From contig NZ_JAKRVX010000004.1 of assembly GCF_023638035.1 (NCBI RefSeq), positions 1 to 64,000 on the forward strand: 64,000 nucleotides of DNA, in the 5' to 3' direction. The notes under the pieces were generated by a model. That model made no database searches. It saw only the letters and a list, made by a program, of their open reading frames with translations, and was not told the DNA's origin. Each line of letters opens with the position of its first letter. Position 1 is the first letter of the stretch. Position numbers and translations under genes: made by a program. Below, piece after piece: positions 5,360-46,850 of this stretch. The stretch is from Natronocalculus amylovorans (GTDB lineage: Archaea > Halobacteriota > Halobacteria > Halobacteriales > Haloferacaceae).

Positions 5360-5410
5360 AATAACCATGAAAGTTGCTCTCAGTACAACGTATCATCTCG
5401 GAGTTGAACC

Positions 5411-23549: not shown

Positions 23550-23558
23550 GTGCGACGA

Positions 23559-25357: not shown

Positions 25358-25981
25358 CTACCAGTGGCCAACCCAATAGTTTGCTGTAAGAACCGCACCG
25401 CCGAGCCAAATTAAATGGTCATTGCTATTCGTCAGATCGATATTGAGTGCCTCGTTCTGTGCACTTCCTACAACACGTATCTTTGCATTCTTCGCAGCGT
25501 CATCATGAAACCAAAACCCAAATCTTAAAGGTAGTGTCCAATCGTAAAGTTCATCGCCATTGTCATCGGTGACTGTTGCCTCCATTACATATCCTCCAAG
25601 ATTCACGCACGCAAGTGTCAGGTTCATCCGATTAGGATCAATCGACCCGTATCGTTTGGACTGATCGTCGGAGACAAAGAGGAGAAAATCGTAGATTCTA
25701 TGATTGTAATCGTTAACATCGAACCAGCCTCGGAAGCGCATATTGTGGGCGTCAATCCAATCTGGCTCTCCGGCCCCAGTCGATCCAGCAAGGTCACTCC
25801 CACCAGTGGGCTCTTCAAGATCCTCCAAAGACTCAATTCTGATCTCCCCAGCCTCTGGAGACTCATCTGAAGCGTCTGGTTCACCTGATGCGGGTGCACC
25901 GATACAACCTGCAATGGCCGCACTAGTCAGTGTTGCGCCAGTTGCGAGAAATGCACGTCGAGAGTGCCACGGTTTATTCAT
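25358..25981 (-). CDS. Tat-exported lipoprotein, paralogue 1 of 6
   Basis: A 207-aa member of a six-gene paralogous family in this window (others at 26070, 42949, 43598, 45476 and 46281). The N-terminus has a twin-arginine motif SRRAFLATGA and lipobox AGC (Cys26), then an acidic linker ending GGSDLAGS. The mature core shares DAHNMRFRGW, GSAQNEAL, IDL and a C-terminal GAVLTANYWVGHW with its sisters. It is the most divergent copy and has an insertion after the RGW motif (DFLLFVSDDQSKRYG), while the last residues are HW rather than RW. Function unknown; a membrane-anchored extracellular beta-rich domain is inferred. Its promoter is almost identical to that of the next copy. Confidence 0.8.
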   Translation of the reverse strand: MNKPWHSRRAFLATGATLTSAAIAGCIGAPASGEPDASDESPEAGEIRIESLEDLEEPTGGSDLAGSTGAGEPDWIDAHNMRFRGWFDVNDYNHRIYDFLLFVSDDQSKRYGSIDPNRMNLTLACVNLGGYVMEATVTDDNGDELYDWTLPLRFGFWFHDDAAKNAKIRVVGSAQNEALNIDLTNSNDHLIWLGGAVLTANYWVGHW

Positions 25982-26010
25982 GATGTACAGAATAGCTAGG
26001 TAACGGATAA

Positions 26011-26034
26011 GTCAGATACCTATACATCATGGTA
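26011..26034 (-). promoter_or_regulatory. Conserved lipoprotein-family promoter, copy 1
   Basis: On the minus strand this reads TACCATGATGTATAGGTATC and onwards. The TATAGG core is about 40 bases before the ATG of paralogue 1. The 57 bases from here to the start codon are identical to those before paralogue 2. It is read as a TATA-type promoter because the same core sits at the same distance before all six paralogues. Confidence 0.6.
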
Positions 26035-26069
26035 GTAGGGGCTTTCTTCGAGGAGCGGTCGATCCTTTG

Positions 26070-26639
26070 TCACCAGCGGCCGATCCAATAGCTCGCAGTA
26101 AGAACCGCCCCGCTGAGCCAAATTTCATGGTGTCTGCCCTCCGTAAGATCTATTTCGAGCGCCTCGTTTTGGGCACTCCCAAGAACGCGAATTTCAGCAG
26201 TCGTCGAGCTATAGCTTCTGATCCACCAAGCTTGTGCAAAGTTTCGACGTTTCGTATACAATGAGTTTCCGTCTTCATCAAACAGTTTTATTTCGACTGT
26301 ATATCCTGCTCTATTGACAATCGATAGTGAAATGTCTTCATTATGATATGGCATGGCCGGATTGTACCGATCCGCATCATACCAGCCTCGGAACCGCATA
26401 TTATGCGCATCAATCCAGTCGGGTTCTCCGTCTCCAGCAGTTCCTGCAAGATCACTGCCACCACCAGGCTCTTCGAGATCGTCCGCAGATTGTATTCTGA
26501 TATCTCCCTCTCCGGGTGAGCGATCGGAGGCCTCTGTTTCTCCAGAGGCAGGCGCACCGATACACCCTGCAATAGCCGTACCAGTTAGTGTTGCGCCAGT
26601 TGCGAGAAACGCACGTCGAGAGTGCCACGATTTGTTCAT
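26070..26639 (-). CDS. Tat-exported lipoprotein, paralogue 2 of 6
   Basis: A 189-aa lipoprotein with the twin-arginine signal SRRAFLATGATLTG and lipobox AGC at Cys26. An acidic linker (ASDRSPGEGDIR) leads to GGGSDLAGTAGDGEPDW and the invariant DAHNMRFRGW. The middle part (YDADRYNPAMPYHNEDIS, VNRAGYTVEI, FDEDGNSLY) aligns with copies 3, 4 and 6. The end GSAQNEALEIDL...GAVLTASYWIGRW is fully typical. It is separated from paralogue 1 by 88 bases that carry that gene's own promoter, so the two are probably transcribed independently. No catalytic motif is seen; function unknown. Confidence 0.82.
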   Translation of the reverse strand: MNKSWHSRRAFLATGATLTGTAIAGCIGAPASGETEASDRSPGEGDIRIQSADDLEEPGGGSDLAGTAGDGEPDWIDAHNMRFRGWYDADRYNPAMPYHNEDISLSIVNRAGYTVEIKLFDEDGNSLYTKRRNFAQAWWIRSYSSTTAEIRVLGSAQNEALEIDLTEGRHHEIWLSGAVLTASYWIGRW

Positions 26640-26668
26640 GATGTACAGAATAGCTAGGTAACGGATAA

Positions 26669-26692
26669 GTCAGATACCTATACATCATGGTA
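26669..26692 (-). promoter_or_regulatory. Conserved lipoprotein-family promoter, copy 2
   Basis: The same 57-base block as before paralogue 1, with the TATAGG core about 40-45 bases upstream of the ATG at 26639. The identity stops sharply beyond the promoter (TAGTAGG versus TTGTGG), which marks the limit of the duplicated block or of the conserved promoter. Confidence 0.6.
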
Positions 26693-26710
26693 TTGTGGCG
26701 GCGGTGCTTG

Positions 26711-27421
26711 CTAACTCTTTTCGGGAGGCACAGCGGCACGCAAATCTGGCTGTGTCCGAGTCAGTTGTCGATACCGGCGCAAGAATACCCACAACACAAG
26801 ATATGAAACCAGCCCGCTTGCGATCGCAACCGGTCGACCGAACACCTCGAAAAGGACGATCAAATTAAACAGTGCGTGCAGTAAGACCGCGAGGCAGTAG
26901 CCGTAGACAACAAACAGCGGCCAAAAACCGAACTCATCGAGCGTCCCATTATATAAATGATACAGCGTGACACCGATGACTCCAGTTGCGGTGCCGTGCA
27001 TAATTGTCGTTGAGACGCTGCGTGTGATAACATACTGCGTCAGTTCAATCGTCGCAAGGTCTTGTGCACGGATGAGAAACGAAAAGTTCTCGACGAGGCT
27101 GAAACCGAACCCAACAAAAATTGCGGCCAGAATGAACTCATGTCTCGCGAGGTAGCGACGAGCGGCGATCGCAACGGCAAACAGCGGCAGCGCCTTGAGG
27201 AACTCTTCAACGATCGGCGCAAACTGAATCTGTAGATCTCGCGTTGAGAGCCGGAACATGAACAGCAGTTCCGTATTAATTTCCGATGCGAGAAAGCCAG
27301 CGATCGCACCCCAGACAAAGAATAACAACAGAAAGCGTGTCTGGGGGTTATCGACAAGCAGAATCAGTAACAACAGTGGAACCGTAATTGCAACCGACAG
27401 CGCAAGCATCATCGGAGCCAT
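26711..27421 (-). CDS. PrsW-family intramembrane metalloprotease-like protein
   Basis: A 236-aa polytopic membrane protein. The PrsW signature is present: EEFLKALPLF (the EExxK motif), then GFSLVENFSF (the ExxxENF-type motif), and His residues in TIMHGTATG and LLHALFN. PrsW proteases cut membrane-bound anti-sigma factors in bacteria; archaeal members have unknown substrates. The gene overlaps the preceding membrane-protein gene by 13 bases, so both are in one operon. A degraded fused copy of the two genes lies at 36371-36561. The C-terminal tail is cytoplasmic and charged. Confidence 0.8.
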   Translation of the reverse strand: MAPMMLALSVAITVPLLLLILLVDNPQTRFLLLFFVWGAIAGFLASEINTELLFMFRLSTRDLQIQFAPIVEEFLKALPLFAVAIAARRYLARHEFILAAIFVGFGFSLVENFSFLIRAQDLATIELTQYVITRSVSTTIMHGTATGVIGVTLYHLYNGTLDEFGFWPLFVVYGYCLAVLLHALFNLIVLFEVFGRPVAIASGLVSYLVLWVFLRRYRQLTRTQPDLRAAVPPEKS

Positions 27422-28152
27422 CCCTCCTGTTCATATCGTAGCAATGAAGCTGCAATCAGTGTCGCAGACACATACCAGACTGGATCAAGAAACTCTACTG
27501 TAAGCTGTGGTGTAATAATTGCAATTGTCGTATATGTAATGTCTGATATTGCAAAGAGCGCGACACCGATTGCAATCCCCCGAAACCGATGTGACAGCAG
27601 CAGGTTTGTTGCAATCGCCAGCGAAGCGCCCGCGAGTGTCACATACCAGAGGCTATAGACAAATCGACCGATCGGGATCGGTTGGCCGATCGTTGCAACG
27701 GCAAGCAACACTGGACCCGCAATGATAATCGGCACAAGCGATCGTCGAAGTCTAATCTCGGCATGTCTGTGAAGATACAGCAACGTTGGGAGTATTAACA
27801 GATAGAACGCCTGAAACCCGAGTTCTGCAACGGATGGGTACGTGATCGGAACGCTCGCAAGATAGACATACAGCGTCCAGTACACGTGGGCTAGTGTCCA
27901 GCCGCTAAGTGCTAATCCAGCAACTAACAGCACTAATCGCTGGTAGTGATAATAACCGACAAATAACAGCGACACTGCGAGCATAAAAAATCCATTCATC
28001 AGCAAGTAATGTAGATCCAAGAAGACCTCACTGAACAGTGTTGTCCCACTGAACGTATCGGTAAGCAGTACCCCTCCGACCCCGATCGCTGCAATGATCG
28101 CACAGGCGAACACCGCGAGTGACACAGACTGGAGTGGATGTTCGCGAATCAT
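27409..28152 (-). CDS. Uncharacterised 8-TM membrane protein, operon partner of PrsW
   Basis: A 247-aa protein made almost entirely of about eight hydrophobic helices, with short loops such as RHAEIRLRRSL. I do not recognise a family motif with certainty; the shape resembles lysoplasmalogenase-type or sensor 8TM domains, but this is weak. The end overlaps the PrsW-like gene by 13 bases, so the pair is coupled. Upstream is the ~600-bp gap before the subtilase gene. Its first 19 codons survive in the fused remnant at 36371-36561, which shows the operon existed in two copies. Confidence 0.6.
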   Translation of the reverse strand: MIREHPLQSVSLAVFACAIIAAIGVGGVLLTDTFSGTTLFSEVFLDLHYLLMNGFFMLAVSLLFVGYYHYQRLVLLVAGLALSGWTLAHVYWTLYVYLASVPITYPSVAELGFQAFYLLILPTLLYLHRHAEIRLRRSLVPIIIAGPVLLAVATIGQPIPIGRFVYSLWYVTLAGASLAIATNLLLSHRFRGIAIGVALFAISDITYTTIAIITPQLTVEFLDPVWYVSATLIAASLLRYEQEGWLR

Positions 28153-28769
28153 CTATAGGATATACGGACTGTCGCGCGGCTTAACTGATTGGGTTGTTGT
28201 GATACCAATTGTCGCAGATATCTGTCTGTTCCTTGCCAGTGAACTCTCATCGTATATGACTGCTGAGTCAATCGTTGTTGATTGGGTGTGTATCAAAAGC
28301 GTCTAAGAAAAAACAGCGAGAGGTTCACAGGTCAGGTGACCTGTGGTCGTTTGCAACAGGGCAAGTTACTTATCCATCAATCATAGCACGAAATAAATTG
28401 TGTGGAGAATATGACAAAAGAGAGATATTAAAAATGCAATGATTAGATTGTGCGCAAGGAATATTTACAATATTACATCTGATTCGACTATTTATTATAT
28501 TATAAATTTTTAATTAACTTACAGCTATTTTCAGATATTAATTTTCGGCTCTTACTAAAAATGTGATTGGTTAGATACATATATAGAAATTTGAATTTTA
28601 GCTTGATAATGGTAGAGACAAAGTTATTTTTAAATGTAGCATTACTGATAATTTTTAACAAACGAATAAACTCGATACATTTTTTCAGCGGTTTATTAAT
28701 TATTTGCACACTATTCCTTCAGGAAAAGATATAAGTCAGAATAATATACAGTTACAGTTGCTAACGCAC
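28153..28769. other. AT-rich 617-bp intergenic region
   Basis: Divergent gap between the 8-TM gene and the subtilase. Bases 28326-28345 hold a perfect palindrome (CACAGGTCA, GG, TGACCTGTG). From about 28380 to 28760 the DNA is much richer in A and T than the rest of the window, with many short A/T runs. The only open frame (28500-28709, minus) is Lys/Ile/Asn-rich and looks like a by-product of composition. It would hold the promoter of the subtilase gene. Confidence 0.6.
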
Positions 28770-31700
28770 ATGAATTATTCCCCAAAATTTAGTACAGTAC
28801 TCGCAATCTTTTTTGCAGCCATTATGCTCACCACACCGGTAGCAATGGCTGCACCTGGTGTCGACTCCTCCAATTCAGGAGAAATTCCAGATGCGAGTCT
28901 AGATGAAGTACAGACCCAATCTCCAGATGAGGTTGAAGTCTCATCTGAGCTTGAATCTGAGGATTCAAACGGAGAAATAACCGAAGTCTTAGTCAGATTA
29001 GATGCTGACTCATCACAGTTCCGCAGTAATGTGGAAGATGAGGTTGACTCCGTCTCAGATGAACAAGAACAACTCAAACAAGACGCAGAAATTACTCAAC
29101 AAACCCTCGAAAGATATGCAGAGTCGGATGAGGGAATCGAGATCATAAACAGTTTCTGGCTTGTTAACGCCGCACTTGTCGAGATCGACACAGAAGAGAC
29201 TGATCTCGATGACATTGCATCAGTTGATGGTGTATCCGAGCTTCATCCAAACTACAACGTAGAGTTGGTTGAACCAGATGGTGACGTCGATTCAAATGAA
29301 TTTGGCGACGCAGACTACACGTATGGGCTGGAACAAATTAATGCTCCAAACGTGTGGGACGATTTTGATACACAAGGTGAAGACACATCTGTTGCAGTTG
29401 TTGATACTGGTATCAATGCAGATCATATTGAGTTCGCCGATCGTGACGAAATCGATGATAATTGGGCTGCATTCGACTTCAACGGTCTAGAAATGGACAC
29501 CGAACCGTTTGATGAGAATGGTCATGGAACACACGTTGCTGGAACTGTTCTCGGTGGGGACGCCTCCGGAACCAGTATCGGTGTCGCACCCGATGCAGAA
29601 CTGATCCCGATCAACGTGTTCCCTGATCCAGACGGTGGAACGACGCTTGCCGCAATTATTGGTGGGCTTGAGAATGCAGTCGAGCAAGGAGCAGATGTTG
29701 CGAACTTCAGCCTCGGTGGTGCTGGGTTTGCCGCAATCTACATTGATCTTGTAAAGAACGCCAAAGAAGCTGGAACGCTCATAGTCTCCTCTTCAGGTAA
29801 CGACGGGCCAGGCTCTGATGGAACGCCTGCGAATGTGTTTAACAGCTCTGCGATCGGTGCAACCGATGAAAACGCGCAAGTAACTGACTTTTCGACCGGA
29901 TCGGAGGTTGATACGGAGGCAACATGGGGAACAATCGCCCCAAGCAGTTGGCCTGATGAGTACGTTACTCCTGACTTTTCTGCACCCGGTGCGGATGTTA
30001 TGAGTTCGTATGTCCCTGGCGATGATGAATACACTGCACTCAGCGGGACGAGTATGGCTGCCCCACACGTTGCCGGGGCTGCAGCACTTCTCATGTCCGA
30101 ACATGACCTCTCACCATCCGAGGTGAAAGACCTGCTTGAAGAGACCGCAACGAAACCGAACCCATCCGAGATTAGTAGTGCGACGATCGGAGATGCTGAA
30201 ATGGTCAGTAGTGGACAAGGAGACAATCTCTTTGATGATGATGTTGCTGATGTCCGATACGGCTACGGAATTGCCGACGTGTATGCAGCGTTCATCTACC
30301 TTGATGAAAACACTGCCACGATCGAAGGCGAGGTAACCGATGGCGAGGACGCAGTCGGTGAACAGATTGTTGACGTTGACGATCCTGGTATTCGAAGCGT
30401 CAAAACGGATGACGATGGAGAGTTTGTCGTTGACGTTGTCGCTGGAGAATACGAATTCTCCGTCGACAGCTTTGGTGAAACGGCCAGCGAAACCGTCTCT
30501 GTCGGTGATGGTGAAACTGAAACAGTATCGCTCGAACTGAGTAACGTTGCTGCTGTTGAGCTACTCCAATCGCAGCCACCAGAGGTTGCGTCTGGAGATG
30601 GCTTTGACATTGCTGTCAATGCAGCAAACATTGAAGAGATTATTGTCGACTTTGGCGAGGATTCCACAGTTTCAAAAGAGAATGTGACTGTGATGCTCGG
30701 TGAAGACGAAATCGAACTCGGAGTGCCAACAGACCTTACTGATGAAGAAGATCTCTTTACTGGTGAAGCAGTAATCAGCGTCACAACAGATGCTGATGCT
30801 GGTGAAAGTCTAGAGCTCGTACACACATTCACTGGCTCTGGTTCGGATATTGAAGACGTCTCATCAGGTGTGACTCAAGTACTTGCTGAGGATGCTGAAC
30901 CAGAAAACGTCGAACTCGTTGAGTTTGACGCGGCTGATGAAGTTATCCCGAGCCAGCCATCGCTTGCTGGAACTGTCACTCTCGAAAACCCAGGTGACTT
31001 TACTCAAGACGTTACTGTCGCACACTCAATTATTTCGCCACCACTCGGTCTGTTCCCAGAACAAGTCACTGTTGGGGCAGGAGAGACTGTTGAGGTAGAT
31101 ATCGGACCATATAATTGGTTTGTTATTGGCGATCCTGGCATAAGTATTAATCACAGGGTAGATGTCTTCCAAGACGGCTCTACGGTTGAAAGTGGTGTCG
31201 AAACAACGGAGTTTGTTGGCGCAACCGGCTCAGCCGGTACTGTCACTGATGTAGATACTGGTGAACCGATCGTCGGTGCAACTGTAACCGTCACTGACCC
31301 TGCCGGTGAAGAGTTCGTCGGCATTAGTGGTGTATCAGGTGAATATGATGTTGGTGGTCCCGAACTACCAGGAACATACACTGTCGAAGTTGCACACGAT
31401 GGATACGTAACCACAGAAACAGAGGTTGATGTTGAAGATGGACCAGTCCAAGCAGATGTCGAACTTGTAAGCGATCCTGTCTATGAGTTCTCGATGGATG
31501 CTGACGAGGTCTACTCGATCGGTATTCCAGGCCCAATTGAGGGTGATACTGTCGGTGACGTAATCGAGGCAGATACTGAAGGAGTCATCTACGCATACGA
31601 TCCCGAAACTGGTGGTTGGACACAAGCAGCAGTTGATGACAGTGTTAGTGCACTCGATGCACTCGTCGTCATTCCAACTGAAGACGCAAATGCATCGATC

Positions 31701-34325: not shown

Positions 34326-34345
34326 AAAAACGCCCATTTTTATTT
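34326..34345 (+). terminator. A/T-tract terminator after the subtilase gene
   Basis: Directly past the stop codon come seven As, a short ACGCCC stretch and a TTTTTATTT run. This is a plausible transcription end before the next gene at 34388. Confidence 0.4.
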
Positions 34346-34387
34346 ATACAACTTATCAATGAGAAAAATAATGGAGACTGATAATAC

Positions 34388-36223: not shown

Positions 36224-36267
36224 CACGGTCTCCTCCGACGATTCCTATCTTTTTAACGAGAGAAACC

Positions 36268-36359: not shown

Positions 36360-36370
36360 CGAAGACAGAC

Positions 36371-36561
36371 CGGCATGCAACTCTGACTGTGCCTGAGTCA
36401 ATTGTCAATACCGGCGCAAGAATACCCACAGGACAAGGGACGAGATCAATCCATTTGCGATCGCACAGGCGAACACCGCGAGTGACACAGACTGGAGTGG
36501 ATGTTCGCGAATCATCCAGAGAATATCCGGACTGTCGCGCGGCTTAACTGATTGGGTTGTT
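36371..36561 (-). pseudogene. Collapsed second copy of the PrsW/8-TM operon
   Basis: Positions 36371-36464 match the 3' end of the PrsW-like gene (26735-26827), and 36458-36561 match the start and upstream part of the 8-TM gene (28095-28198). The two are joined in the order expected if about 1.3 kb between them was deleted. The junction falls on a shared GATCGCA present in both parents. The fused frame begins at 36515 as the 8-TM protein (MIREHPLQSVSLAVFACAI) and continues into the PrsW end (LVLWVFLRRY), then meets a TGA where the intact gene has CGA. This is a scar, not a working gene. Confidence 0.85.
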
Positions 36562-36579
36562 TTGAAGCAACGCTGTGAG

Positions 36580-38373
36580 TTAGGGCTGTGCGACCGTTTG
36601 GTTCGGGAGCTGTATCCTGACGATCGTCCCTTGTGGCTCATTTCTCTCCACATGGAGGGTGCCACCTGCGTTTGTGACGACCCAGTGAACAAGCCAGAGT
36701 CCACTGCCGCTGCCATGAAAGAGTTGCTCCTCGGTTTGACCTAACACGGCGATTTCGTCTTCCGGAATTCCCGTGCCCTGATCGGAGACTGCGATCGTAA
36801 CGGTGTCATCGGTATGTGTCCCAGCGAGTTCAACAGTTGCTTGTGCGGAGGTGTGTTTGATGGCGTTCGTAACGAGTTCGAAAACAGCATGCTCTAATTC
36901 AGGAGTCACCGTAATTGAGAGGTCATCTGGTGCTGTGATCGTGATTGTCGCCGTCGTGTAGATCTCTTGGATATCATCTTTGACTTCGGTGAGCATCTGT
37001 TTAAGATCGAACGTCACGGCTTCATGATTTGTATTGATTTGGGCTGCAATCTTCTGTTGCTTTTCCGTGAGGGTCATCACCTTATGACCGACATCAATGA
37101 TCGTTTCGGCGTGTGCTGCTGGCTCGCCGTCGGTTTTGGAGATAATGAGATCGGCATACCCCATCATAATATTTAGATCGTTGCGAAGGTTGTGCCGGAG
37201 GACGCGATTGAGCACGGCAAGCTGTTGTCCACGCTTTTTTCGATTGGTGATCTCCTCTGCGAGGCCAACAAATCGATACGGGTTCCCATCCGCGTCAAAC
37301 ACCGGAATTCCGCGATCGTGTATCCACCGAATCGATCCGTCCTGATGGACAATCCGATACTCGATATCATAGTGACCTTTCGCTTTGTTTTTCACGGTCT
37401 CTCTGACACGCGGTTGATCGGCTTTGTGAACCGAGTCAATAAATGAGAGCGGGTCTGCATACAGAGAGTCTCTCGATCGACCCCACACTTTCTCGTACTC
37501 CGGATTCACGTAATGCATCGTTTCGGTTTTTGCGTCGCTTACCCACAACACCTCCGTGAGATTCTCTGCAAGCTCTCGAAAGAGGACTTCGCTCTTTTCG
37601 AGTTCGTCAACGTACGTCCTGCGCTCGATACCACCTTTGAGCAGCGTCACAATTGTAACGCAGAATGATTCTTCTTCAGAGAGAAATGGCCCATAATCAG
37701 CGATCGGTTTGGGTTCGGTATAGACAACGTCTAACCGAATCTGTGTTCCAGTTGCGGTGTCCGCAGCAACGCTAAGCATCTTTTCGCGCTCTTGAAAATG
37801 AGGCGTTTGGACGGTGGTAGACCCAACTGTGAGCCGCACCTCCGCGGCATCGGGATACTGAAACGCTTGGGGGAGTTCTGTCGCAACGTCTTCAAGAATA
37901 TCTCTGACTGCACGTGAGGTTGGGTCTTCCAAGAGTCTTGCAACGGTCCGGATCCCATGGAGCTCTTTGATCCGTTCATGAAGGCTCGCAATGGGCCACT
38001 GCTGCTCGATCGCATCTTGAATTGTGGCCACAAGGTCGTCGATGTGACCTGCAGCCTCCGAATATGAAATGTATTCGGTGACGTTTGCAGTAATTGCCTT
38101 CTTTGCGATCGCTTCCGAACTGTCTGTTGGATAGAGGACAACTGCGAGCTCCGGGTATGACTGGGTGAGTGATTCGATGAATTCGAAGACGTCCGTATTC
38201 GGGAGCGTCTCGGGGAGTAATAGACACTGAATTTCCGATTTCTTCGAAAGCAGCTCTGTGGCTTCCGCTGCCGTCGAGACGGCACGTACCTCGTAGGCAG
38301 GTTGGTGTTTGAGTTTTGTTGTCACCGATGTGGCATGTGGCTCGTCTCCGGTCACATAGAGTATCGGCGTCAT
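36580..38373 (-). CDS. PAS sensor histidine kinase with degenerate receiver-like N-terminus
   Basis: A 597-aa soluble kinase. Residues 1-125 look like a receiver fold (ILYVTGDEPHA, LAVVLYPTDS), but the phosphoacceptor position reads LLLPETLPNTD without an Asp, so it may not be phosphorylated. A GAF-like region (~145-250) and a PAS domain with PAC (~265-390, VNPEYEKVWGRS and RIVHQDGSIRWIHDRG) follow. HisKA has the haloarchaeal H box VLRHNLRNDLNIMMGYA. The ATPase domain has ELVTNAIKHT, SDQGTGIPEDE and HGSGSGLWLV. No transmembrane segments are present. Its partner regulator is not adjacent. It sits downstream of the PrsW-operon scar on the same strand. Confidence 0.85.
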   Translation of the reverse strand: MTPILYVTGDEPHATSVTTKLKHQPAYEVRAVSTAAEATELLSKKSEIQCLLLPETLPNTDVFEFIESLTQSYPELAVVLYPTDSSEAIAKKAITANVTEYISYSEAAGHIDDLVATIQDAIEQQWPIASLHERIKELHGIRTVARLLEDPTSRAVRDILEDVATELPQAFQYPDAAEVRLTVGSTTVQTPHFQEREKMLSVAADTATGTQIRLDVVYTEPKPIADYGPFLSEEESFCVTIVTLLKGGIERRTYVDELEKSEVLFRELAENLTEVLWVSDAKTETMHYVNPEYEKVWGRSRDSLYADPLSFIDSVHKADQPRVRETVKNKAKGHYDIEYRIVHQDGSIRWIHDRGIPVFDADGNPYRFVGLAEEITNRKKRGQQLAVLNRVLRHNLRNDLNIMMGYADLIISKTDGEPAAHAETIIDVGHKVMTLTEKQQKIAAQINTNHEAVTFDLKQMLTEVKDDIQEIYTTATITITAPDDLSITVTPELEHAVFELVTNAIKHTSAQATVELAGTHTDDTVTIAVSDQGTGIPEDEIAVLGQTEEQLFHGSGSGLWLVHWVVTNAGGTLHVERNEPQGTIVRIQLPNQTVAQP

Positions 38374-38487
38374 AACAAACTCATCTACTTGTATTGTTGG
38401 ATTTGTGTTAGGATAACAGTGCTGATATCACGGTGTCGTCTTCGAAGCCACCGCCAGCAAGGACTGCCAGCGCTGGTAGCGATTCGG

Positions 38488-41400
38488 TTACAATCCAAGG
38501 AACCCTTCGATCGTTGCGAAGAGTGCACTGGTGTCGAACAGAATCCCACTTAACAGTGCGGCAAGCACGACAAAGGTGATTTTTCCGTATCGGCTGATGA
38601 GCACCCGTGTCGATGTTGGCAGCCGAGCACGCACCGGTGGGAGCGTCATAAACCCTAAGAATATGCTTAGCGAGCCTGCGAGGAGGTTCTCTTGCACGTT
38701 CGAGAATCCGATGTAGAGGACGAACGTTCCTGCGGTGTATGAGAGAATCTTGCCCTTCTTGAGCCAGATCTGGTTGAGAAGCCCTGTTTTCGTCCCTTCA
38801 TCAATTGCGTCGTCCGTCTCGTCTGTCTCGTCCGTCTCATCTGTCTCTTCGATCGGTTCGCCTCCAACTTCGACCGTCACGTCTGTGGCATCGGTCTCAC
38901 AGTCGATCGTAAAGCCAAGCGACTTTCCAGCGTCCTCCGGTTTTACCTCATATTCAAGCTGTATCGGCTCCGTTTCATGTGGCTCAACCTCGAGCGCTTG
39001 TGAATCTTCCTCCTCATTTAATGCAAGCGAAATCATCCGTGCACCCACGATATCTCCCTTATTTTCGATCGCGATCGTGAATGTAATCGTCTCGCCAACT
39101 TCGACGCCGTCGTCAGCACCTCCCACACTCACTGCACCGACCACAAATGCAGCCTGTTCAGGCTCTGCAAGCAGTGCCGATGCGGCACCTGGAACCGCGG
39201 CGACCGCTTTGGCAACGCTCTCTGGTGCGGCTGCTGCAAACAGCTCCGTCCGTGAGAAGAGCACAATGCCAAGCCAGCCTGCCGCTGCTCCAGCACCCCC
39301 GCCAACAACGACTCTTGATGCATTGGTCCATCCACTACTCGTTGGTGGAACCGCTGCGGCTTCCTGTGGTGTCTCCGTTTCATTCTCGGTTGGTTCTGGC
39401 GTCTCCGTCTCCGTTTCCGTTGATGCGTCTGTCAGTGACGACTCTTCCGTTGGGATTGGTGTTTCAGTTGGCGTTGGAGTTGGTGTTGGCGTCTCAGTCG
39501 GAGTTGGGGTTGACCTGCTCGGTCGAGGGGTGCTCTGGCTTGGTGTGGACGTTTCTTCGATCGTGAAACTGCCGGTTGCAGTATCAGTTGCACCAGTATC
39601 TGATTGAATTGATGCAGCCCACGTGTACTCACCTGATGACAGCTCATCAGTGACGTATTCTCTCGTTATGCTGCCGGTTTCTGGGGGCAGATAATCGTCG
39701 GTTAGAACGACTTCATCATCAAACTCAAATTCAACCGTCCCTTCAGTGAATGCGCCGTTCGGGTCTGTGATTTCAATTGTGAACGTCACGGAGTCATCCT
39801 CTTCTGGGGCAGATGGATCAAACGAAACCGAGACCTCCACAGATTCAAAGACCGTAATATCTGCGACAGCACTAAACCCGCTGGCTTCTGCAGTGAGTGG
39901 TACGGTCCCAGCACTTTCTCCAGTGATCGACCCCTGATCGGTAATACTTGCGATCGTAGAATCGTCGCTTACATACGATGCGGGTTCAGTTGCGGTAACG
40001 CTCCGATCGGCAAGGAGTTCGACTGTGACTGCTGCTTGTGCTGTTTCTTCGACGGCGATCTCTGCTGGGTCAAGTTCGACGCTGTAATCTAAGACGTGGT
40101 CAACGAGTTCTGGGTACTCGTCTGTTGCAATCCACGTAGGATTAAATGAAAACTCCATCTCTGTTAGACTTGACTCGCCTTGCATCTGGTCTGTGGTCAA
40201 ACCACTCACTGACTCAGTAGTACCGTCACCAAGCGCATCTTCGACACCACTTGCAGCAGTATCCCAGTAGACATCAGTGATATCTGGTTCAGCGTTGAGT
40301 TCACCAGCAAATCCGCCACCACCATCTGTGACGGCTCCTGCTGCGTATGATGTTCGAACAATACCTTCATCAATAGTTCCAATGAGGCCACCATACTGTG
40401 AGTCTCCATCAACGTCCCCAACAGCGTACGTGTTCTCGATCGTTCCAAGTTCATTTAGTCCGACTAGACCACCGATACTGGTGTCTCCAGAAACATCACC
40501 ACGTGCGGAGGAGTCTGTAACTTCACCCCCACCACTGACTTGTATATTCTGTCCGATTAGGCCTCCAACATTTGTCTCACCAGAAACGTCACCTGTCGCA
40601 GTCGTATTGAGAACGATTCCGTCATTTCTTCCGACTGCACCACCGACATCATCCTCACCGTTTACTGAGGCAGTTGAAACAGCGTTAACAACATCGCTTG
40701 TTGTCCTACCAACAATCCCACCAACCGAATTTTGACCGTTCACATCTCCTGCTGCAACGACATTAGTTACTACAACCCAATCTGATGCGGTTCCAATAAT
40801 TGCACCAACATCATCGGAGTCTGTAGCCGTTACCTCAATGTCTACTTGAACCGATTGGATTTGGTCAACTTCGCCAGCAGCGTCTTCACTATTTGCACTT
40901 GTACCAACAACACCTCCAATCCCATCGCCACCATTACTTTGAACTGTCCCGGTGGCAGTCACATCAGTGATATTCCCTAGATTACGGCCAATAACCCCAC
41001 CGATCGACTCCATGGAACCCTCGTCTCCGGTATCCAACTCTTCTGCCCCTGTAACGACAACGTCTGCCTCAACATCGGTTACTGATGCACCGGTGGCTGT
41101 AACCCCAACGATACCACCCACTTGAGTAAACCCTGTTGTCTCACCTTCATAATTTATGTTTGATATAGACCCATCTAGGAAACCAACTACTCCCCCAACA
41201 GCATTGACGCCAGTCACTGACGCTTCAACAAGGCTGAGATTAGATAGTTCACCAGTCTCTGCAACTGTTGAAAAGAATCCAACTCCATTATCTCCATCCC
41301 GATCGATCGACAGCCCTTCAATCATGTTCCCCTGTCCATCAAATGAGCCACTGAATGCGGTCTCTTGACCGATCGGCATGAATCCTGCGCCATCATTCCA

Positions 41401-42645
41401 CAATTCTGTCTCACTCGCATCGATCATTGTCTCGATCGTGTAGCTTGCAGTCAGTGCGGCTTCGATCGCTTGGAGGTCATACACATCACCAAGGACGTAT
41501 GGATCTTCAGTCGATCCATCACCGGATAGTTGTCTAAAGAACTCCCCGGTGAGTTCAGGGTACGAGTCCGTTGGAATCCATGTGTCATAGAACTCGAAGC
41601 CGTCGAGACCATCCATCGCCGTTACGTTCATCCCAGTCATTCGATCGGTTGCTAGCCCAGTTCCGAAGTCGTTTGGCGTGGTAACACGATCACTATCCCA
41701 GTAGACTGTTTGGAAATCAACGTCTCCTGGATCAACTGGCTCAAAACCGGGATCTTCAGCGCCCCCAACTGCACCACCGACGGCGCTTTCATCGATCGCG
41801 GTTACACTGGCTGCTGCGAAGGATGTGTTGAGCTGTGGAGAGCTTTCAGGAACAACAAAGAGACCAACAAGACCACCGACGTTTTCGCTGCCGTTTATTG
41901 AGCCAACGACTCTTGTGTTGGTGATTTCTCCGCCAACATCATTAACACCTGTAATTCCACCAACATTCGATTCACCGTCGATCGACGCATCTACCGAAAC
42001 GTTTGTGATAAGACCATCATTCAAGCCGGCGATCGCACCTGTTGTATTCGGCGTCCCAGCAGCGTTTCTTGCCTGAATATTTACTGTAAGTGAAAGATTG
42101 CTAACTGTCCCTTCGTTCAATTCAAACAGGCCAATACCGGTGGTATCGCTGTGCGATCTGTTAATATATAGATCCGTAATGCTGTATCCATCACCGTCTA
42201 ATGAACCAGTAAATGGTGTTTCGCCTGAACCAGTAAATACTGTTTCGCCTCCAATTGGGTTGAACCCAGACCCACCGTTCCATGATTCTGTCTCGCTTGC
42301 ATCAATATCGTTTACAAGCCGATAGTCATCGTCAAGCCCGTTCGACTCGATACCGTTCAGCTCGATACCGTTCGACTCGATACACTGCAGTTGGGAGACG
42401 TTCTCGATGAGATAGGTTTCGCCATCTTGTTCATAGGTTACGATCTCACACTCAGGTGCTGTCTCTGCGATCGCAGTCCCTGCAAAGACAGTGAACCCGA
42501 CCAACAAGAGACTCCCCACAAATAGACAGGCAATAAGAAACTGCTGCGATCGTGGTTGATGGGTGCCGTCGATCGAGTCGCGGTTTTGTGTGTACGTGCG
42601 TGTGTGCGTAGAGTTGTCATTGGAAAGTCGTGGTTGAATAGCCAT
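38488..42645 (-). CDS. GLUG-repeat surface protein with C-terminal membrane domain
   Basis: A 1385-aa exported protein. A long N-region precedes a hydrophobic signal near residues 36-60 (LIACLFVGSLLLVGFTVFAG). Residues ~75-870 contain many GLUG-type repeats (GG-x-VG-x-N/L, for example VGGLVGL, VGGAVGRN, IGGVVGTS) that should form a beta-helix. A Big_2-like domain (~890-960), a beta domain, a Thr/Pro linker (TPTPTETPTPTPTPTE), a hydrophobic segment (~1125-1145), a CARDB-like module with an acidic TDETDE run, and two or three C-terminal transmembrane helices follow. It lacks PGF-CTERM, so it is held by helices instead. A short tandem repeat lies at 42340-42385 (SNGIELNGIESNG). Adhesion is the likely role, by inference. 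Confidence 0.82.
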   Translation of the reverse strand: MAIQPRLSNDNSTHTRTYTQNRDSIDGTHQPRSQQFLIACLFVGSLLLVGFTVFAGTAIAETAPECEIVTYEQDGETYLIENVSQLQCIESNGIELNGIESNGLDDDYRLVNDIDASETESWNGGSGFNPIGGETVFTGSGETPFTGSLDGDGYSITDLYINRSHSDTTGIGLFELNEGTVSNLSLTVNIQARNAAGTPNTTGAIAGLNDGLITNVSVDASIDGESNVGGITGVNDVGGEITNTRVVGSINGSENVGGLVGLFVVPESSPQLNTSFAAASVTAIDESAVGGAVGGAEDPGFEPVDPGDVDFQTVYWDSDRVTTPNDFGTGLATDRMTGMNVTAMDGLDGFEFYDTWIPTDSYPELTGEFFRQLSGDGSTEDPYVLGDVYDLQAIEAALTASYTIETMIDASETELWNDGAGFMPIGQETAFSGSFDGQGNMIEGLSIDRDGDNGVGFFSTVAETGELSNLSLVEASVTGVNAVGGVVGFLDGSISNINYEGETTGFTQVGGIVGVTATGASVTDVEADVVVTGAEELDTGDEGSMESIGGVIGRNLGNITDVTATGTVQSNGGDGIGGVVGTSANSEDAAGEVDQIQSVQVDIEVTATDSDDVGAIIGTASDWVVVTNVVAAGDVNGQNSVGGIVGRTTSDVVNAVSTASVNGEDDVGGAVGRNDGIVLNTTATGDVSGETNVGGLIGQNIQVSGGGEVTDSSARGDVSGDTSIGGLVGLNELGTIENTYAVGDVDGDSQYGGLIGTIDEGIVRTSYAAGAVTDGGGGFAGELNAEPDITDVYWDTAASGVEDALGDGTTESVSGLTTDQMQGESSLTEMEFSFNPTWIATDEYPELVDHVLDYSVELDPAEIAVEETAQAAVTVELLADRSVTATEPASYVSDDSTIASITDQGSITGESAGTVPLTAEASGFSAVADITVFESVEVSVSFDPSAPEEDDSVTFTIEITDPNGAFTEGTVEFEFDDEVVLTDDYLPPETGSITREYVTDELSSGEYTWAASIQSDTGATDTATGSFTIEETSTPSQSTPRPSRSTPTPTETPTPTPTPTETPIPTEESSLTDASTETETETPEPTENETETPQEAAAVPPTSSGWTNASRVVVGGGAGAAAGWLGIVLFSRTELFAAAAPESVAKAVAAVPGAASALLAEPEQAAFVVGAVSVGGADDGVEVGETITFTIAIENKGDIVGARMISLALNEEEDSQALEVEPHETEPIQLEYEVKPEDAGKSLGFTIDCETDATDVTVEVGGEPIEETDETDETDETDDAIDEGTKTGLLNQIWLKKGKILSYTAGTFVLYIGFSNVQENLLAGSLSIFLGFMTLPPVRARLPTSTRVLISRYGKITFVVLAALLSGILFDTSALFATIEGFLGL

Positions 42646-42948
42646 GTGTAGGTCGGGCGCACCGAATCGAATCGACCCTACAGAGGAGAACCCTCACAGA
42701 GAAATATCGCAAACGGAGCGTTAGTACCGTCTACTAACTATCTGTATATAAGTTCAATACCTATACTTATAAAATAGTACACTCTTACTGATAACAACCG
42801 AGATATATATATTGTAATTTTGACAATATGTTTGCGTACAATGGTTTGTTTTGTTCGAGACCACTCTCTGTCTCACCTTCACATTGTGTTGCTCCCCTAT
42901 CACTAAATTCACATGTCGAAATAGTACCATTTCGCCAACGAGCGATCG
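42646..42948. other. 303-bp intergenic region with a lipoprotein-type promoter core
   Basis: On the minus strand 42757-42765 reads TATAGGTAT and is followed by TGAACTTATATAC, close to the promoter shared by the six Tat lipoproteins. It lies about 112 bases before the ATG of the GLUG-repeat gene, so the leader would be long. The rest of the gap is A/T-rich and shows no gene. Confidence 0.4.
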
Positions 42949-43518
42949 TCACCAGCGGCCGATCCAGTAGTTGGAAGTAAGAACCGCACCACCAAACCAA
43001 ATCTCATGTTTTTCACCCGCAGGTAGATCGATGGTAAGTGCTTCGCTTTGTGCACTTCCTACGACATTGATTTCGACCGTTGCCGCTTCTGAATAGTTGA
43101 ACCACCAACTGTAGGCAAAGTTAAGACGGTTGTCAGTTATCCCGTTTCCGTCCTCGTCAAAGGCTGCAATATCAACAGAGTATCCTGCGGCGTTAACAAA
43201 TGCTAGTTGGATATTGCGTCTTTCATACGGCATTGCAGGATCATACTCATCCGCATAGTACCAGCCTCGGAATCGCATATTGTGTGCATCAGTCCAATCA
43301 GGCTCTCCATCACCAGCTGAGCCAGCAAGGTCACTGCCACTACCAGGCTCTTCAAGGCTATCTTCGAGACTTGTATTGACCTCCCCCTCATCTGCAAATT
43401 GTTCTCCAGCATCCGTTTCTCCGGTTGCAGGTGCTCCAATACAACCTGCAATGGCTGCACCAGTTAGTGTTGCACCGGTTGCAAGAAACTTTCGTCGAGA
43501 GTGCCACGATTTGTTCAT
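42949..43518 (-). CDS. Tat-exported lipoprotein, paralogue 3 of 6
   Basis: A 189-aa lipoprotein with SRRKFLATGATLTG and lipobox AGC (Cys26). The linker is GETDAGEQFADEGEVN. The core has SGSDLAGSAGDGEPDW, DAHNMRFRGWYYADEYDPAMPY, VNAAGYSVDI, FDEDGNGI, then VVGSAQSEALTIDL and the end GAVLTSNYWIGRW. It keeps the same length and order as copies 2, 4 and 6, with most change in the middle strands. The next paralogue lies 79 bases upstream on the same strand, and each has its own promoter. Function unknown. Confidence 0.82.
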   Translation of the reverse strand: MNKSWHSRRKFLATGATLTGAAIAGCIGAPATGETDAGEQFADEGEVNTSLEDSLEEPGSGSDLAGSAGDGEPDWTDAHNMRFRGWYYADEYDPAMPYERRNIQLAFVNAAGYSVDIAAFDEDGNGITDNRLNFAYSWWFNYSEAATVEINVVGSAQSEALTIDLPAGEKHEIWFGGAVLTSNYWIGRW

Positions 43519-43547
43519 GATTTCTGAATGGTTGGATTATGTATAAG

Positions 43548-43570
43548 TCAGGTGCCTATATATCAAGGTA
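43548..43570 (-). promoter_or_regulatory. Conserved lipoprotein-family promoter, copy 3
   Basis: The minus strand reads GTACCTTGATATATAGGCAC then CTGACTTAT, with the TATATAGG core about 40 bases before the ATG at 43518. It differs from copies 1 and 2 at only a few positions. Confidence 0.55.
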
Positions 43571-43597
43571 CTACGAAATTTCCTCAGCTAAAAACAG

Positions 43598-44167
43598 TCA
43601 CCACCGGCCAACCCAGTAGCTCGCAGTGAGGACCGCGCCACTGAACCAAACCTCATGCTGTGCACCCGACGCAAGATCAATTTCGATTGCCTCACTCTGT
43701 GCACTTCCGAGAACACGTATTTTCGCAGTCCGAGCATTCAGATTGCTGAAATACCACCCGTTAGCAAAAGGCAGGCGGCGATCATGTAATGTATTTCCAA
43801 TATCATCTAGGACTTCAATGTGAACAGTGTAGCCTGCACGATTGACAATGGCCAATCTAATATATTGTCGGTGGTATGATATGCCTGGTTCATAATTATC
43901 AGCATAGTACCAGCCTCGGAATCGCATGTTGTGTGCGTCGATCCAATCGGGTTTTCCGTCGCCAGCCGAGCCAGCAAGCTCACTGCCACCAGCGGGTTCT
44001 TCAAGGCCTTCTTCGAGGGTTATATTATCACTCTGGCTGTCCGGGACCTCTTCCCTAGTTTCTGTTTCTCCTCTCGTAGGTGCTCCAAGACATCCTGCAA
44101 ATGCTGCCCCAGTCATCGCTGCGCCTGTTGCTAATATATCACGTCGTGAATGTAACCGGCTATTCAT
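43598..44167 (-). CDS. Tat-exported lipoprotein, paralogue 4 of 6
   Basis: A 189-aa lipoprotein starting at the ATG at 44167, which places SRRDILATGAAMTG correctly and gives lipobox AGC at Cys26. The frame is open 16 codons upstream through the promoter, but that extension (MMYRYRSYPV...) is read from promoter DNA. The core contains GGSELAGSAGDGKPDW, DAHNMRFRGWYYADNYEPG, VNRAGYTVHIEVLDDIGN, VLGSAQSEAIEIDL and GAVLTASYWVGRW. It is closest to copies 2 and 3. Upstream lies the IS-derived segment at 44273-44570. Function unknown. Confidence 0.82.
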   Translation of the reverse strand: MNSRLHSRRDILATGAAMTGAAFAGCLGAPTRGETETREEVPDSQSDNITLEEGLEEPAGGSELAGSAGDGKPDWIDAHNMRFRGWYYADNYEPGISYHRQYIRLAIVNRAGYTVHIEVLDDIGNTLHDRRLPFANGWYFSNLNARTAKIRVLGSAQSEAIEIDLASGAQHEVWFSGAVLTASYWVGRW

Positions 44168-44198
44168 ACTTATATAACAATTGTCTACCGGATAGCTT

Positions 44199-44220
44199 CG
44201 ATACCTATACATCATAGTAT
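44199..44220 (-). promoter_or_regulatory. Conserved lipoprotein-family promoter, copy 4
   Basis: The minus strand reads ATACTATGATGTATAGGTAT then CGAAGCTAT, with the core about 40 bases before the ATG at 44167. Confidence 0.55.
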
Positions 44221-44272
44221 CGTGGCTGTGGCGGTGCTCTCCATCAAGTTCTACAGAGATACAGCGAGAGTG

Positions 44273-44570
44273 CCTCGGGGCTTGACCCCGAGGGTGAATC
44301 GTGTAAGCTTTATTGCTAGTTCCACCATATTAACGAGTACAGTTGCGAGGAATGCGATACCTCTCAAAACCCGCGCTCTTGGCGTGGTGAGACGGGTGTT
44401 GTCGGGTCGTGGTGGAGCGACCGGCCCTCACGGACACAACGGGTGTTCGGGTGTTAATTCCAACCGACCCATTTCGGGGAGGTCGAGGGGAATTAAATTC
44501 GCCTGCGTCCATCCGTCCGTTTCTGGACAGCATGGACAAAACGGTGAAGCCTCGGGGCTTGTCCCCGAGG
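44273..44570 (+). mobile_element. IS200/IS605-type remnant bounded by two near-identical hairpins
   Basis: The hairpin CCTCGGGG, CTTGA, CCCCGAGG lies at 44273-44293, and CCTCGGGG, CTTGT, CCCCGAGG at 44550-44570. The second extends into outer GTGAAG/CTTCAC arms. They face the same way, 277 bp apart. The ~255 bp between is open in one frame (VERPALTDTTGVRVLIPTDP and onward) and may be the last part of a TnpB gene, but no zinc finger or catalytic motif remains. Two nested or tandem element ends, or a MITE, would explain it. No intact gene lies in the 437-bp gap 44168-44604. Confidence 0.45.
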
Positions 44571-44604
44571 TACTTCACACCCTGCCTTCCCAAGCGACTT
44601 CGAC

Positions 44605-45174
44605 TCACTTGATCCGAACGTCGATTAAATTTCCAATTTCATGTGTGGGGGGGTCGTACTGGATGTAAAATCCTGAGTTGTACGACTTCTCAAGACACTC
44701 TTCAGTCCGTTCAACGTTGACCGTGACAGTAACGGGACCATCCCACGGGGGAAGAACTTCTTCTGTACGCCCGTCTTTGATTGCTTGTTCTGCCTCTTCC
44801 CGAGTCAATTCATCATATTCTTCCAACCACCACTTTCGCGATGCATTGATATCAACAACACAGTATTCAGGTTGTTCGTCAACTGGTTCGGTGTACACGA
44901 CTGCGGGGTCAATACCCACTCGATCTAATTCATCCATCCCGATTTTTGCAAAGCACATGAGCGTTTGGCCCTCGTCTTCGACGCTAGCACGCCATATTGT
45001 TGCGTTCAGTGTTGCCTTTGGAAGTGTATCTGTTTGATACGATGACCCGTTGTATTTCGACATCGGGGCGCTCATCGGTCCATCAAACCGAAGGACCACA
45101 TCCCCTCTTTCGGCTTCACAGAGTGTTCGAACGATCGAGGCAGTCCGATCGGAATCGTTCGTTGTATTATTCAT
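44605..45174 (-). CDS. Hypothetical protein, second gene of a coupled operon
   Basis: A 189-aa acidic soluble protein, starting MNNTTNDSDRTASIVRTL. The ATG at 45174 is chosen because GGAGGA lies six bases before it, inside the preceding small gene, whose stop overlaps this start. Notable segments are ERGDVVLRFDGPMSAP, a DINASRKWWLEEYDELTREEAEQAI helix region and a VTVTVNVERTEECLE strand. There is no signal peptide, membrane segment or known motif. It lies between the IS remnant and paralogue 5 of the Tat lipoproteins. I do not recognise the family; the position suggests imported accessory DNA. Confidence 0.6.
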   Translation of the reverse strand: MNNTTNDSDRTASIVRTLCEAERGDVVLRFDGPMSAPMSKYNGSSYQTDTLPKATLNATIWRASVEDEGQTLMCFAKIGMDELDRVGIDPAVVYTEPVDEQPEYCVVDINASRKWWLEEYDELTREEAEQAIKDGRTEEVLPPWDGPVTVTVNVERTEECLEKSYNSGFYIQYDPPTHEIGNLIDVRIK

Positions 45175-45322
45175 ATTTTTCTCCTCCATATTTTGAGACT
45201 CGATCGGCTTTCGCGTTTGTTCCACACCAGCGTTGTACGACGCGACCGTGGGCGCGGTTCCAGAATGGTTTGACCGTTGCGTCAAGAGCTTCCTCGCGAT
45301 CGATTCCAATACGCTTCGACAT
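45167..45322 (-). CDS. 51-aa basic small protein upstream of and coupled to the 44605 gene
   Basis: Reads MSKRIGIDREEALDATVK and ends KYGGEKYE, with one Trp-Cys-Gly (RWCGTNAKAD) in the middle. It is basic, unlike most proteins here, which would suit nucleic-acid binding. A TATA-like TTATATTG lies about 30 bases upstream of the ATG (around 45353-45360). Its final codons contain the ribosome-binding site and the start codon of the next gene, an eight-base overlap. Small antitoxin- or regulator-like genes often have this layout, but no family match is evident. Confidence 0.45.
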   Translation of the reverse strand: MSKRIGIDREEALDATVKPFWNRAHGRVVQRWCGTNAKADRVSKYGGEKYE

Positions 45323-45423
45323 ACTCGTGTGTCTCTTTCTGCGTGGACAAGCAATATAAGACGAGTGCCTCTGTGTTTGTCCCTGAGGTACGCCACTCAA
45401 AATCGTTGCTAGAAATCGATCGC

Positions 45424-45443
45424 CACCATGATATATAGGTGTC
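45424..45443 (+). promoter_or_regulatory. Conserved lipoprotein-family promoter, copy 5
   Basis: CACCATGATATATAGGTGTC, with the TATATAGG core about 40 bases before the ATG at 45476. The following ~30 bases, up to the start codon, are also shared with copy 6 (GAGAGATATTCAT). Confidence 0.58.
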
Positions 45444-45475
45444 AAGGTTATAGTGTGAGAGATATTCATGTTTGT

Positions 45476-46102
45476 ATGAATGACCGATGGTACTCACGGC
45501 GTGATCTATTGGCAGCTGGAGCTGCAGTAACTGGAACCGCACTTGCAGGCTGTCTTGGTGCGCCAGCATCTAGTGAGACAGATCGATCGGAGCAGCCCAC
45601 AGAAAATGCAACTGAAGATGGCGATATTCAGACTCCAGATGGGTCAGAGGAGCCCGCTGGAGGAAGCGAGCTTGCAGGATCTGCTGGTGGTGACGCACCT
45701 AGTTGGGTCGATGCACATCGGATGCGATTCCGAGGTTGGTATGATGCGGATGAGTATGAACCGTCAGCACCATATCATACGCAAGATGTTAAATTATCAG
45801 TAATAAACAAGGGCGCATATGTAATTGAGACTACACTGGTAGATTTTGATGGTAACAGATTTTCTGGCAGACCGAGACCCATAGATGGTGCCGGTTCGCG
45901 TTTTCAATTATTTCATGAGCGCTATTTTTGGTTTCGTAACCCCAATGTATATGCTGATGATCCTATTGCAGCAGCTGAGATTCGTGTTGTTGGAAGCGCA
46001 CAAAACGAACGCCTCACGATCGATCTCACTGAGGGCAAACACCACGAGGTTTGGTTCAGCGGTGCAGTGCTCACAGCCGGCTACTGGATCGGCCGGTGGT
46101 AG
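45476..46102 (+). CDS. Tat-exported lipoprotein, paralogue 5 of 6
   Basis: A 208-aa lipoprotein with SRRDLLAAGAAVTG and lipobox AGC (Cys26). The linker is longer (SEQPTENATEDGDIQTPDG). The core has GGSELAGSAGGDAPSW, DAHRMRFRGWYDADEYEPSAPYH, INKGAYVIETTLVDFDGN, then an extra loop (RPIDGAGSRFQLFHERYFWF) not found in copies 2, 3, 4 or 6, and finishes VVGSAQNERLTIDL and GAVLTAGYWIGRW. His replaces Asn-Met as DAHRM, a change shared only with copy 6. With copy 6 it forms a plus-strand pair opposite to the others. Function unknown. Confidence 0.82.
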   Translation: MNDRWYSRRDLLAAGAAVTGTALAGCLGAPASSETDRSEQPTENATEDGDIQTPDGSEEPAGGSELAGSAGGDAPSWVDAHRMRFRGWYDADEYEPSAPYHTQDVKLSVINKGAYVIETTLVDFDGNRFSGRPRPIDGAGSRFQLFHERYFWFRNPNVYADDPIAAAEIRVVGSAQNERLTIDLTEGKHHEVWFSGAVLTAGYWIGRW

Positions 46103-46228
46103 GTACTGCTGTTTTGTATTTTCTCTGTGAGATATAATAACGATACGTCACCTGTTTCCGTCACATACCTCTCAAATCGCTGGTTTGAGGCATTTTCTCT
46201 GCGATCGCTATGACCACAAATTGACGAC

Positions 46229-46248
46229 TACCATGATATATAGGTATC
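46229..46248 (+). promoter_or_regulatory. Conserved lipoprotein-family promoter, copy 6
   Basis: TACCATGATATATAGGTATC, with the core about 40 bases before the ATG at 46281. It is the best match to the consensus of all six copies. Confidence 0.58.
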
Positions 46249-46280
46249 AAGGTTATGATGTGAGAGATATTCATCTTTGT

Positions 46281-46850
46281 ATGAATGATCGATGGCACTC
46301 ACGGCGTGATCTATTGGCAGCTGGAGCTGCAGTAACTGGAGCCGCACTTGCAGGCTGTCTTGGTGCACCTGGATCAGCGGAAACTGACGCTTCAGATGGA
46401 CCGCCAGAAAATGGGGATATCAGAATTCAATCGACGGATGTGATAGAAGAGCCTAGTGGCGGGAGCGATCTTGCGGGGTCTGCTGGCGATGGCGAGCCTG
46501 ACTGGGTTGATGCACATCGGATGCGATTCCGAGGCTGGTACTACGCGGACGAATATGACCCTGCGATGCCATATCACAGAGAAAACATTACAATGTCGGT
46601 GTTCAATATGGGAGGATACGTTGCTGAGATAACCGTCAGAGATGGCACTGATGACGAGCTCTACAGTTGGAATAAGAGCTTTGAGCGTGGACAATGGTTT
46701 AGAAACTCTGATGCCGCCTCCGCAGAAATCCGTGTCATTGGCAGCGCTCAAAACGAACGTCTCACAGTCGACCTTACCGAGGGTGCACACCATGAAATAT
46801 GGCTCAGCGGAGCCGTGCTCACAGCAGGCTACTGGATCGGTCGCTGGTAG
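46281..46850 (+). CDS. Tat-exported lipoprotein, paralogue 6 of 6
   Basis: A 189-aa lipoprotein with SRRDLLAAGAAVTG and lipobox AGC (Cys26). The core contains GGSDLAGSAGDGEPDW, DAHRMRFRGWYYADEYDPAMPYH, FNMGGYVAEITVRDGTDDELY, VIGSAQNERLTVDL and GAVLTAGYWIGRW. The first ~40 codons are nearly identical in DNA to paralogue 5, which shows a recent duplication or gene conversion. The upstream in-frame extension (from 46185) runs through the promoter and is rejected. Function unknown; a membrane-anchored extracellular domain is inferred. Confidence 0.82.
   Translation: MNDRWHSRRDLLAAGAAVTGAALAGCLGAPGSAETDASDGPPENGDIRIQSTDVIEEPSGGSDLAGSAGDGEPDWVDAHRMRFRGWYYADEYDPAMPYHRENITMSVFNMGGYVAEITVRDGTDDELYSWNKSFERGQWFRNSDAASAEIRVIGSAQNERLTVDLTEGAHHEIWLSGAVLTAGYWIGRW

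Follow-up and report, generated by a model that had tools for sequence, protein, structure and literature searches.

Regulated intramembrane proteolysis by PrsW, together with RsiW, is known from Bacillus subtilis. PrsW-family proteases carry three active-site motifs, EExxK, a transmembrane histidine and HxxxD or HxxxN (PMC4602095), and proteases of this type also occur in haloarchaea, where a 2022 review gives their function as unknown (PMC9263693). Haloarchaea also have a described set of lipoproteins exported by twin-arginine translocation (Tat), the TatLipo set, in which 12-21 residues separate the arginine pair from the lipobox cysteine (Storf et al., 2010; PMC2945643). Here we analyse a stretch of 64,000 nucleotides from Natronocalculus amylovorans (NCBI RefSeq assembly GCF_023638035.1, contig NZ_JAKRVX010000004.1, positions 1 to 64,000 of the forward strand; hereafter the window), in which six lipoprotein genes of one family are found with genes for a PrsW-family protease and a seven-transmembrane (7TM) protein.

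The locus resembles the PrsW/RsiW system of B. subtilis in having a PF13367 protease with EExxK, a transmembrane histidine and HxxxN that adjoins membrane signalling genes. It differs in its candidate partners, namely lipoproteins together with a 7TM protein, and in that the protease misses the NCBIfam equivalog for the B. subtilis protein (NF033739; 17.2 bits against a cut-off of 225 bits). To our knowledge, archaea have no sigma/anti-sigma system. The lipoproteins share with the TatLipo set the twin arginine, the [IFL]AGC lipobox and the 12-21 spacing, and depart from it in having a mature domain without a family and in being multi-copy with a private shared promoter box. Peptide circuits of the agr/ComD type group a multi-transmembrane histidine kinase, a response regulator, a membrane peptidase and small exported proteins, all of which also adjoin one another in the window. 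Those circuits use short peptides, whereas the window has folded lipoproteins of 164-183 residues and a kinase that is not constant.

We propose, with a probability of roughly 0.4, that the lipoproteins form the exported and lipid-anchored part, present in several versions, of a PrsW/7TM module for signalling or processing that is rare and moves horizontally. There is good support for membership in this module and for joint regulation of the six genes, beyond which we infer sensing, docking and cleavage. The initial annotation of this DNA did not include the protease, the 7TM protein, the kinase and response regulator or the promoter box, and the context that these provide points to a signalling or processing module over a free-standing receptor or adhesin. 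Taken together, the evidence suggests a putative and so far undescribed module for sensing or processing at the cell surface.

Conserved ends and a variable middle in six lipoproteins

The lipoprotein genes are as follows.

25358..25981, minus strand: lipoprotein w1, 207 aa; the first conserved block is followed by an insertion of 18 aa
26070..26639, minus strand: lipoprotein w2, 189 aa
42949..43518, minus strand: lipoprotein w3, 189 aa, closest to the Natronoglomus copy m2 (74.5% aa identity)
43598..44167, minus strand: lipoprotein w4, 189 aa
45476..46102, plus strand: lipoprotein w5, 208 aa; its middle carries two insertions
46281..46850, plus strand: lipoprotein w6, 189 aa

All six open reading frames (ORFs) reported in the initial annotation were found and are intact, and they do lie, as it had stated, in two clusters adjoining large surface proteins, in a window whose G+C content (~50%) is low for haloarchaea. 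In a genome-wide profile search the six genes were matched at E < 1e-95 and are the sole copies of the family in the genome, the remaining matches falling in the signal-peptide region (E > 8e-5). Every protein has SRR at residues 7-9 and Cys26 within [IFL]AGC. The S/T-R-R, hydrophobic stretch and [LIF]AGC lipobox expected of haloarchaeal Tat lipoproteins are all present, and the distance from the arginine pair to the cysteine, 16 residues, lies inside the 12-21 range, so the shared plan with a Tat signal and a lipobox Cys26 that had been described fits the published rule. The proteins are probably Tat-exported and lipidated. Their mature parts are acidic (pI 4.05-4.86). The motifs listed as common to the family hold overall, but the gene at 26070 has LAGT, that at 42949 SGSDLAG and that at 46281 VDL.

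A codon comparison of the six genes bears out the earlier claim that the ends are fixed and the middle variable. The mean proportion of nonsynonymous differences (pN) was 0.12 for residues 58-90, 0.42 for residues 91-149 and 0.16 for residues 150-189, at mean proportions of synonymous differences (pS) of 0.63, 0.81 and 0.68, respectively. Because pS is high in the mature domain, it is purifying selection and not recent copying that holds the ends fixed, and gene conversion as their origin is ruled out by the values there (0.63-0.68). The signal-peptide part looks recently homogenised in w5/w6 (pS 0.05) and also among w1/w2/w3. The middle is under less constraint, with relaxed purifying selection (pN/pS ~0.5), and the comparison of the six genes gave no sign of positive selection on it. 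The conserved frame and variable middle of the scaffold that had been suggested are supported; selected diversification of the middle is not.

The mature domain had no match above cut-off in Pfam, NCBIfam or PHROGs and no PDB sequence match below E=0.03, and PADLOC profiles matched none of the three lipoproteins searched, the protease or the 7TM protein; the statement that the family is uncharacterised is supported by these searches. An AlphaFold2 model built from nine sequences is an all-beta domain of about ten strands, with medium confidence (pLDDT 68). Foldseek, run on this model, gave transthyretin/HIUase-like top matches with E no better than 1.4e-3 (~1e-3). With TM-scores of 0.37-0.54 (query-normalised 0.37-0.48) and 5-13% identity on a model of pLDDT 68, this is a resemblance of fold class and does not establish membership, and no strong match to a known family appeared. 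The model supports a generic beta-sandwich, with no finer assignment.

PrsW and 7TM partners in three carrier genomes

Counted with the mature domain only among 392 genomes of the order, the lipoprotein family occurs in three, belonging to three genera.

Window's own genome: 6 lipoprotein copies
G020, same family as the window organism but another genus: 3 lipoprotein copies
G430, Natronoglomus mannanivorans, another family: 3 lipoprotein copies

Congeners of the latter two have no member, and the lipoprotein family is a sporadic accessory trait. The lineage-specific expansion proposed earlier is real as a local expansion; widespread haloarchaeal occurrence with lineage-specific copy numbers is not what the 3/392 count and the congeners lacking the family show. 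A search with full-length proteins had matched 112 of 148 genomes, nearly all through Tat signal peptides, and its repeat with the mature domain left the three true carriers. The match in a possible fourth, G307 (E=0.007), belongs to a 1524-aa frame and was put down to chance.

Two genes accompany the lipoproteins.

26711..27421, minus strand: PrsW-family intramembrane protease (PF13367, E=3.8e-21), immediately upstream of w2 and on its strand
27409..28152, minus strand: 7TM membrane protein, 247 aa, seven predicted transmembrane segments, overlapping the PrsW gene by 13 nt

The active-site motifs of the protease are intact, and their residues (E72, E73 and K76; H142; H182 and N186) are invariant across the three genera. 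The 7TM protein belongs to no Pfam family, and its AlphaFold model is unusable (pLDDT 48). It is present in exactly the three lipoprotein-carrying genomes, a co-occurrence expected by random placement about once in 10 million, ignoring shared ancestry. Outside the carriers, this PrsW subtype was absent at E<=1e-10 among 293 genomes, a sample that excluded N. mannanivorans, which nonetheless carries it. The order 7TM, PrsW, lipoprotein(s) is common to the window, Natronoglomus (L063/L101) and G020 (L067), and is kept in the last even though a transposase gene (L067 11958-13124) separates the 7TM and PrsW genes.

Between the window and Natronoglomus, PrsW is 93.5% identical at the amino acid level (pS 0.33) and the 7TM protein 85.8% (pS 0.28). 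Such similarity (pS ~0.3) between members of separate families within the order is suggestive of horizontal transfer. The lipoproteins of the two genomes are at most 74.5% identical and are thus the fast part of the module. In a tree with moderate support, copies from both genomes interleave, as (m3,(w5,w6)) and (w3,w4,m1,m2), so several paralogues appear to be older than the inter-family transfer and to have been retained over time. G020 is deeply diverged, its lipoproteins being 33-39% and its PrsW ~71% identical.

With only three known carriers, horizontal transfer alone could keep neighbours together, and a single genomic island might have moved among the three lineages while the lipoproteins did something unrelated to PrsW and the 7TM protein. 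We consider such an accidental link improbable: the gene order persists in the deeply diverged G020 amid different surrounding genes and despite the transposase between the 7TM and PrsW genes. The rare, patchy and apparently mobile distribution and the several divergent paralogues also recall genes of conflict, in which case the variable lipoproteins would counter halocins or viruses as immunity proteins or decoy receptors; moreover, putative bacteriocin-processing enzymes are found in the CPBP/CAAX superfamily, to which PrsW belongs (PMC4602095). The lack of PADLOC matches for the lipoproteins, PrsW and 7TM protein and of positive selection in the divergent middle speaks against this role, as does the failure to recognise a toxin gene beside PrsW and the 7TM gene. 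Nor were relatives found in phages or plasmids by tblastn, or in viral contigs scanned with the lipoprotein and 7TM families, and we regard defence or competition as quite improbable.

A genome-unique box ahead of the six genes

An 18-bp promoter-like box, CCWTGATRTATAGGYRYC, stands 32-33 nt ahead of all six lipoprotein start codons.

26015..26032, minus strand: box CCATGATGTATAGGTATC, 33 nt before the w1 ATG
26673..26690, minus strand: box, 33 nt before the w2 ATG
43551..43568, minus strand: box CCTTGATATATAGGCACC, 32 nt before the w3 ATG
44200..44217, minus strand: box with 1 mismatch, 32 nt before the w4 ATG
45426..45443, plus strand: box, 32 nt before the w5 ATG
46231..46248, plus strand: box, 32 nt before the w6 ATG

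The six upstream regions were themselves the source of the pattern, which must therefore occur in them; what counts as independent evidence is that it is missing elsewhere, keeps a constant spacing and recurs in Natronoglomus. At up to 2 mismatches, the 3.26-Mb genome contains only these six sites, all before lipoprotein genes, and the reversed pattern gave two chance matches; at up to 3 mismatches the window has seven sites against 0.6 expected. Related boxes precede all three Natronoglomus copies. The box is not the coding sequence of an N-terminal extension: in w1 and w2 it does not share the frame of the gene, and in w3 and m3 in-frame stop codons come after it. It resembles a TATA-region element that has additional conserved bases and suggests that one factor may control the six genes jointly.

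Kinase pair, surface proteins and the proposed role

Three further genes on the opposite side of the first cluster are relevant to what the module might do.

23550..25262, plus strand: histidine kinase with a 7TM sensor (HisKA_7TM) and PAS; the Natronoglomus partner is 84% identical
21906..23549, plus strand: response regulator with receiver, GAF, BAT and HTH_10; the Natronoglomus partner is 72% identical
9258..20273, plus strand: giant surface protein, beta-helix/CARDB, PGF-CTERM, 3671 aa; homologues flank the Natronoglomus module, and its own membership in the module is uncertain

The response regulator, the kinase and giant PGF-CTERM surface proteins are common to the window and Natronoglomus, that is, to two of the three carriers. 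Homology of the 7TM protein to the 7TM domain of the kinase is unsupported (hhalign probability 1.2%). In the giant protein, beta-helix (NosD-like) blocks precede a long tandem array of CARDB-like repeats, each of ~90 aa, and the protein has a PGF-CTERM-like end. In Natronoglomus a homologue of 3691 aa is encoded divergently from the 7TM gene, and the C-terminal parts of the two giant proteins are 34% identical over 716 aa (E=1e-77).

The giant surface proteins speak for the main rival explanation, in which the lipoproteins are accessories of envelope structure or adhesion: small lipid-anchored beta-sandwiches would help to assemble, anchor or cap the giant PGF-CTERM proteins, with PrsW and the 7TM protein in processing or quality control and no signalling involved. 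Besides the homologous giant proteins flanking the module in two carriers, surface genes are also situated between the two lipoprotein clusters, and the G020 module is flanked by SipW-dependent (TasA-like) exported proteins and a signal peptidase (read from the sequences). However, the surface neighbours differ, giant beta-helix proteins in two carriers against TasA-like proteins in G020, and a purely structural role leaves the strict link to PrsW and the 7TM protein unexplained. We hold this role to be unlikely.

Under the signalling or processing reading, the lipoproteins would be exported by Tat and lipidated and would fold into small beta-sandwiches at the outer face of the membrane, where their conserved ends would dock on shared membrane partners. 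The divergent middle strands and loops may then recognise different envelope cues or partners, for instance the giant surface proteins encoded alongside. PrsW would cut a lipoprotein, or a membrane partner gated by one, to pass the signal on, and the kinase pair could relay it with or instead of this cleavage. Through the shared box, one regulator or one initiation factor might set all six genes together. A bolder form of this proposal is a new archaeal transmembrane signalling module in which co-regulated, diversified lipoproteins with one docking frame serve as interchangeable extracellular sensors for the PrsW/7TM pair and which is passed on as a whole from one haloarchaeal family to another by horizontal transfer; we think this rather unlikely.

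Several points weigh against the signalling or processing reading. No solved relative or experiment backs a sensing role, the substrates suggested for PrsW are putative, and the lipoprotein fold has been modelled with medium confidence only (pLDDT 68). The G020 module has no match to the box, and its 7TM gene is apparently cut near the 3' end by the transposase insertion, with loss of the normal C-terminus. The kinase beside it is a hybrid of another kind that lacks the 7TM part, and genomes devoid of the module also contain relatives of the kinase sensor, so the two-component pair is not strictly coupled to the module and the kinase is an optional partner. What the reading offers is one PrsW subtype tied to a 7TM partner and a lipoprotein set, a small and testable system for archaeal intramembrane proteolysis and lipoprotein function, with the genome-unique box as a handle on the regulator.

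The locus would also suit a pheromone or quorum-type circuit, since multi-copy exported proteins whose C-terminus (YW[IV]GxW) is invariant occur there together with a membrane peptidase, a response regulator and a 7TM histidine kinase. In such a circuit PrsW would cut lipoprotein precursors and release conserved fragments sensed by the 7TM kinase, as in agr/ComD-type circuits. Yet the model shows the C-terminus as one strand of a folded domain, and it is conserved from one genus to another, unlike pheromone segments, which as a rule diverge. The kinase, too, is not a constant partner; this circuit seems very improbable to us.

Histidine kinases of a related type adjoin SipW-dependent (TasA-like) exported proteins and a signal peptidase in G020 (L067 679-8122) and in G161 (L103 1-4378), and a wider link of such kinases to surface fibres is possible. 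The second lipoprotein cluster consists of two pairs, and an ORF of ~200 aa (44605-45219) that lies between them has no match in Pfam, NCBIfam or PADLOC. Beside that cluster, two small overlapping genes (47444-48276) resemble, as read from their sequences, a PIN-domain toxin and UPF0175-like antitoxin pair. At the other end of the window, positions 872-9127 read as a molybdenum hydroxylase cluster with large, medium and small subunits and XdhC-like, MobA-like, MoxR and VWA proteins.

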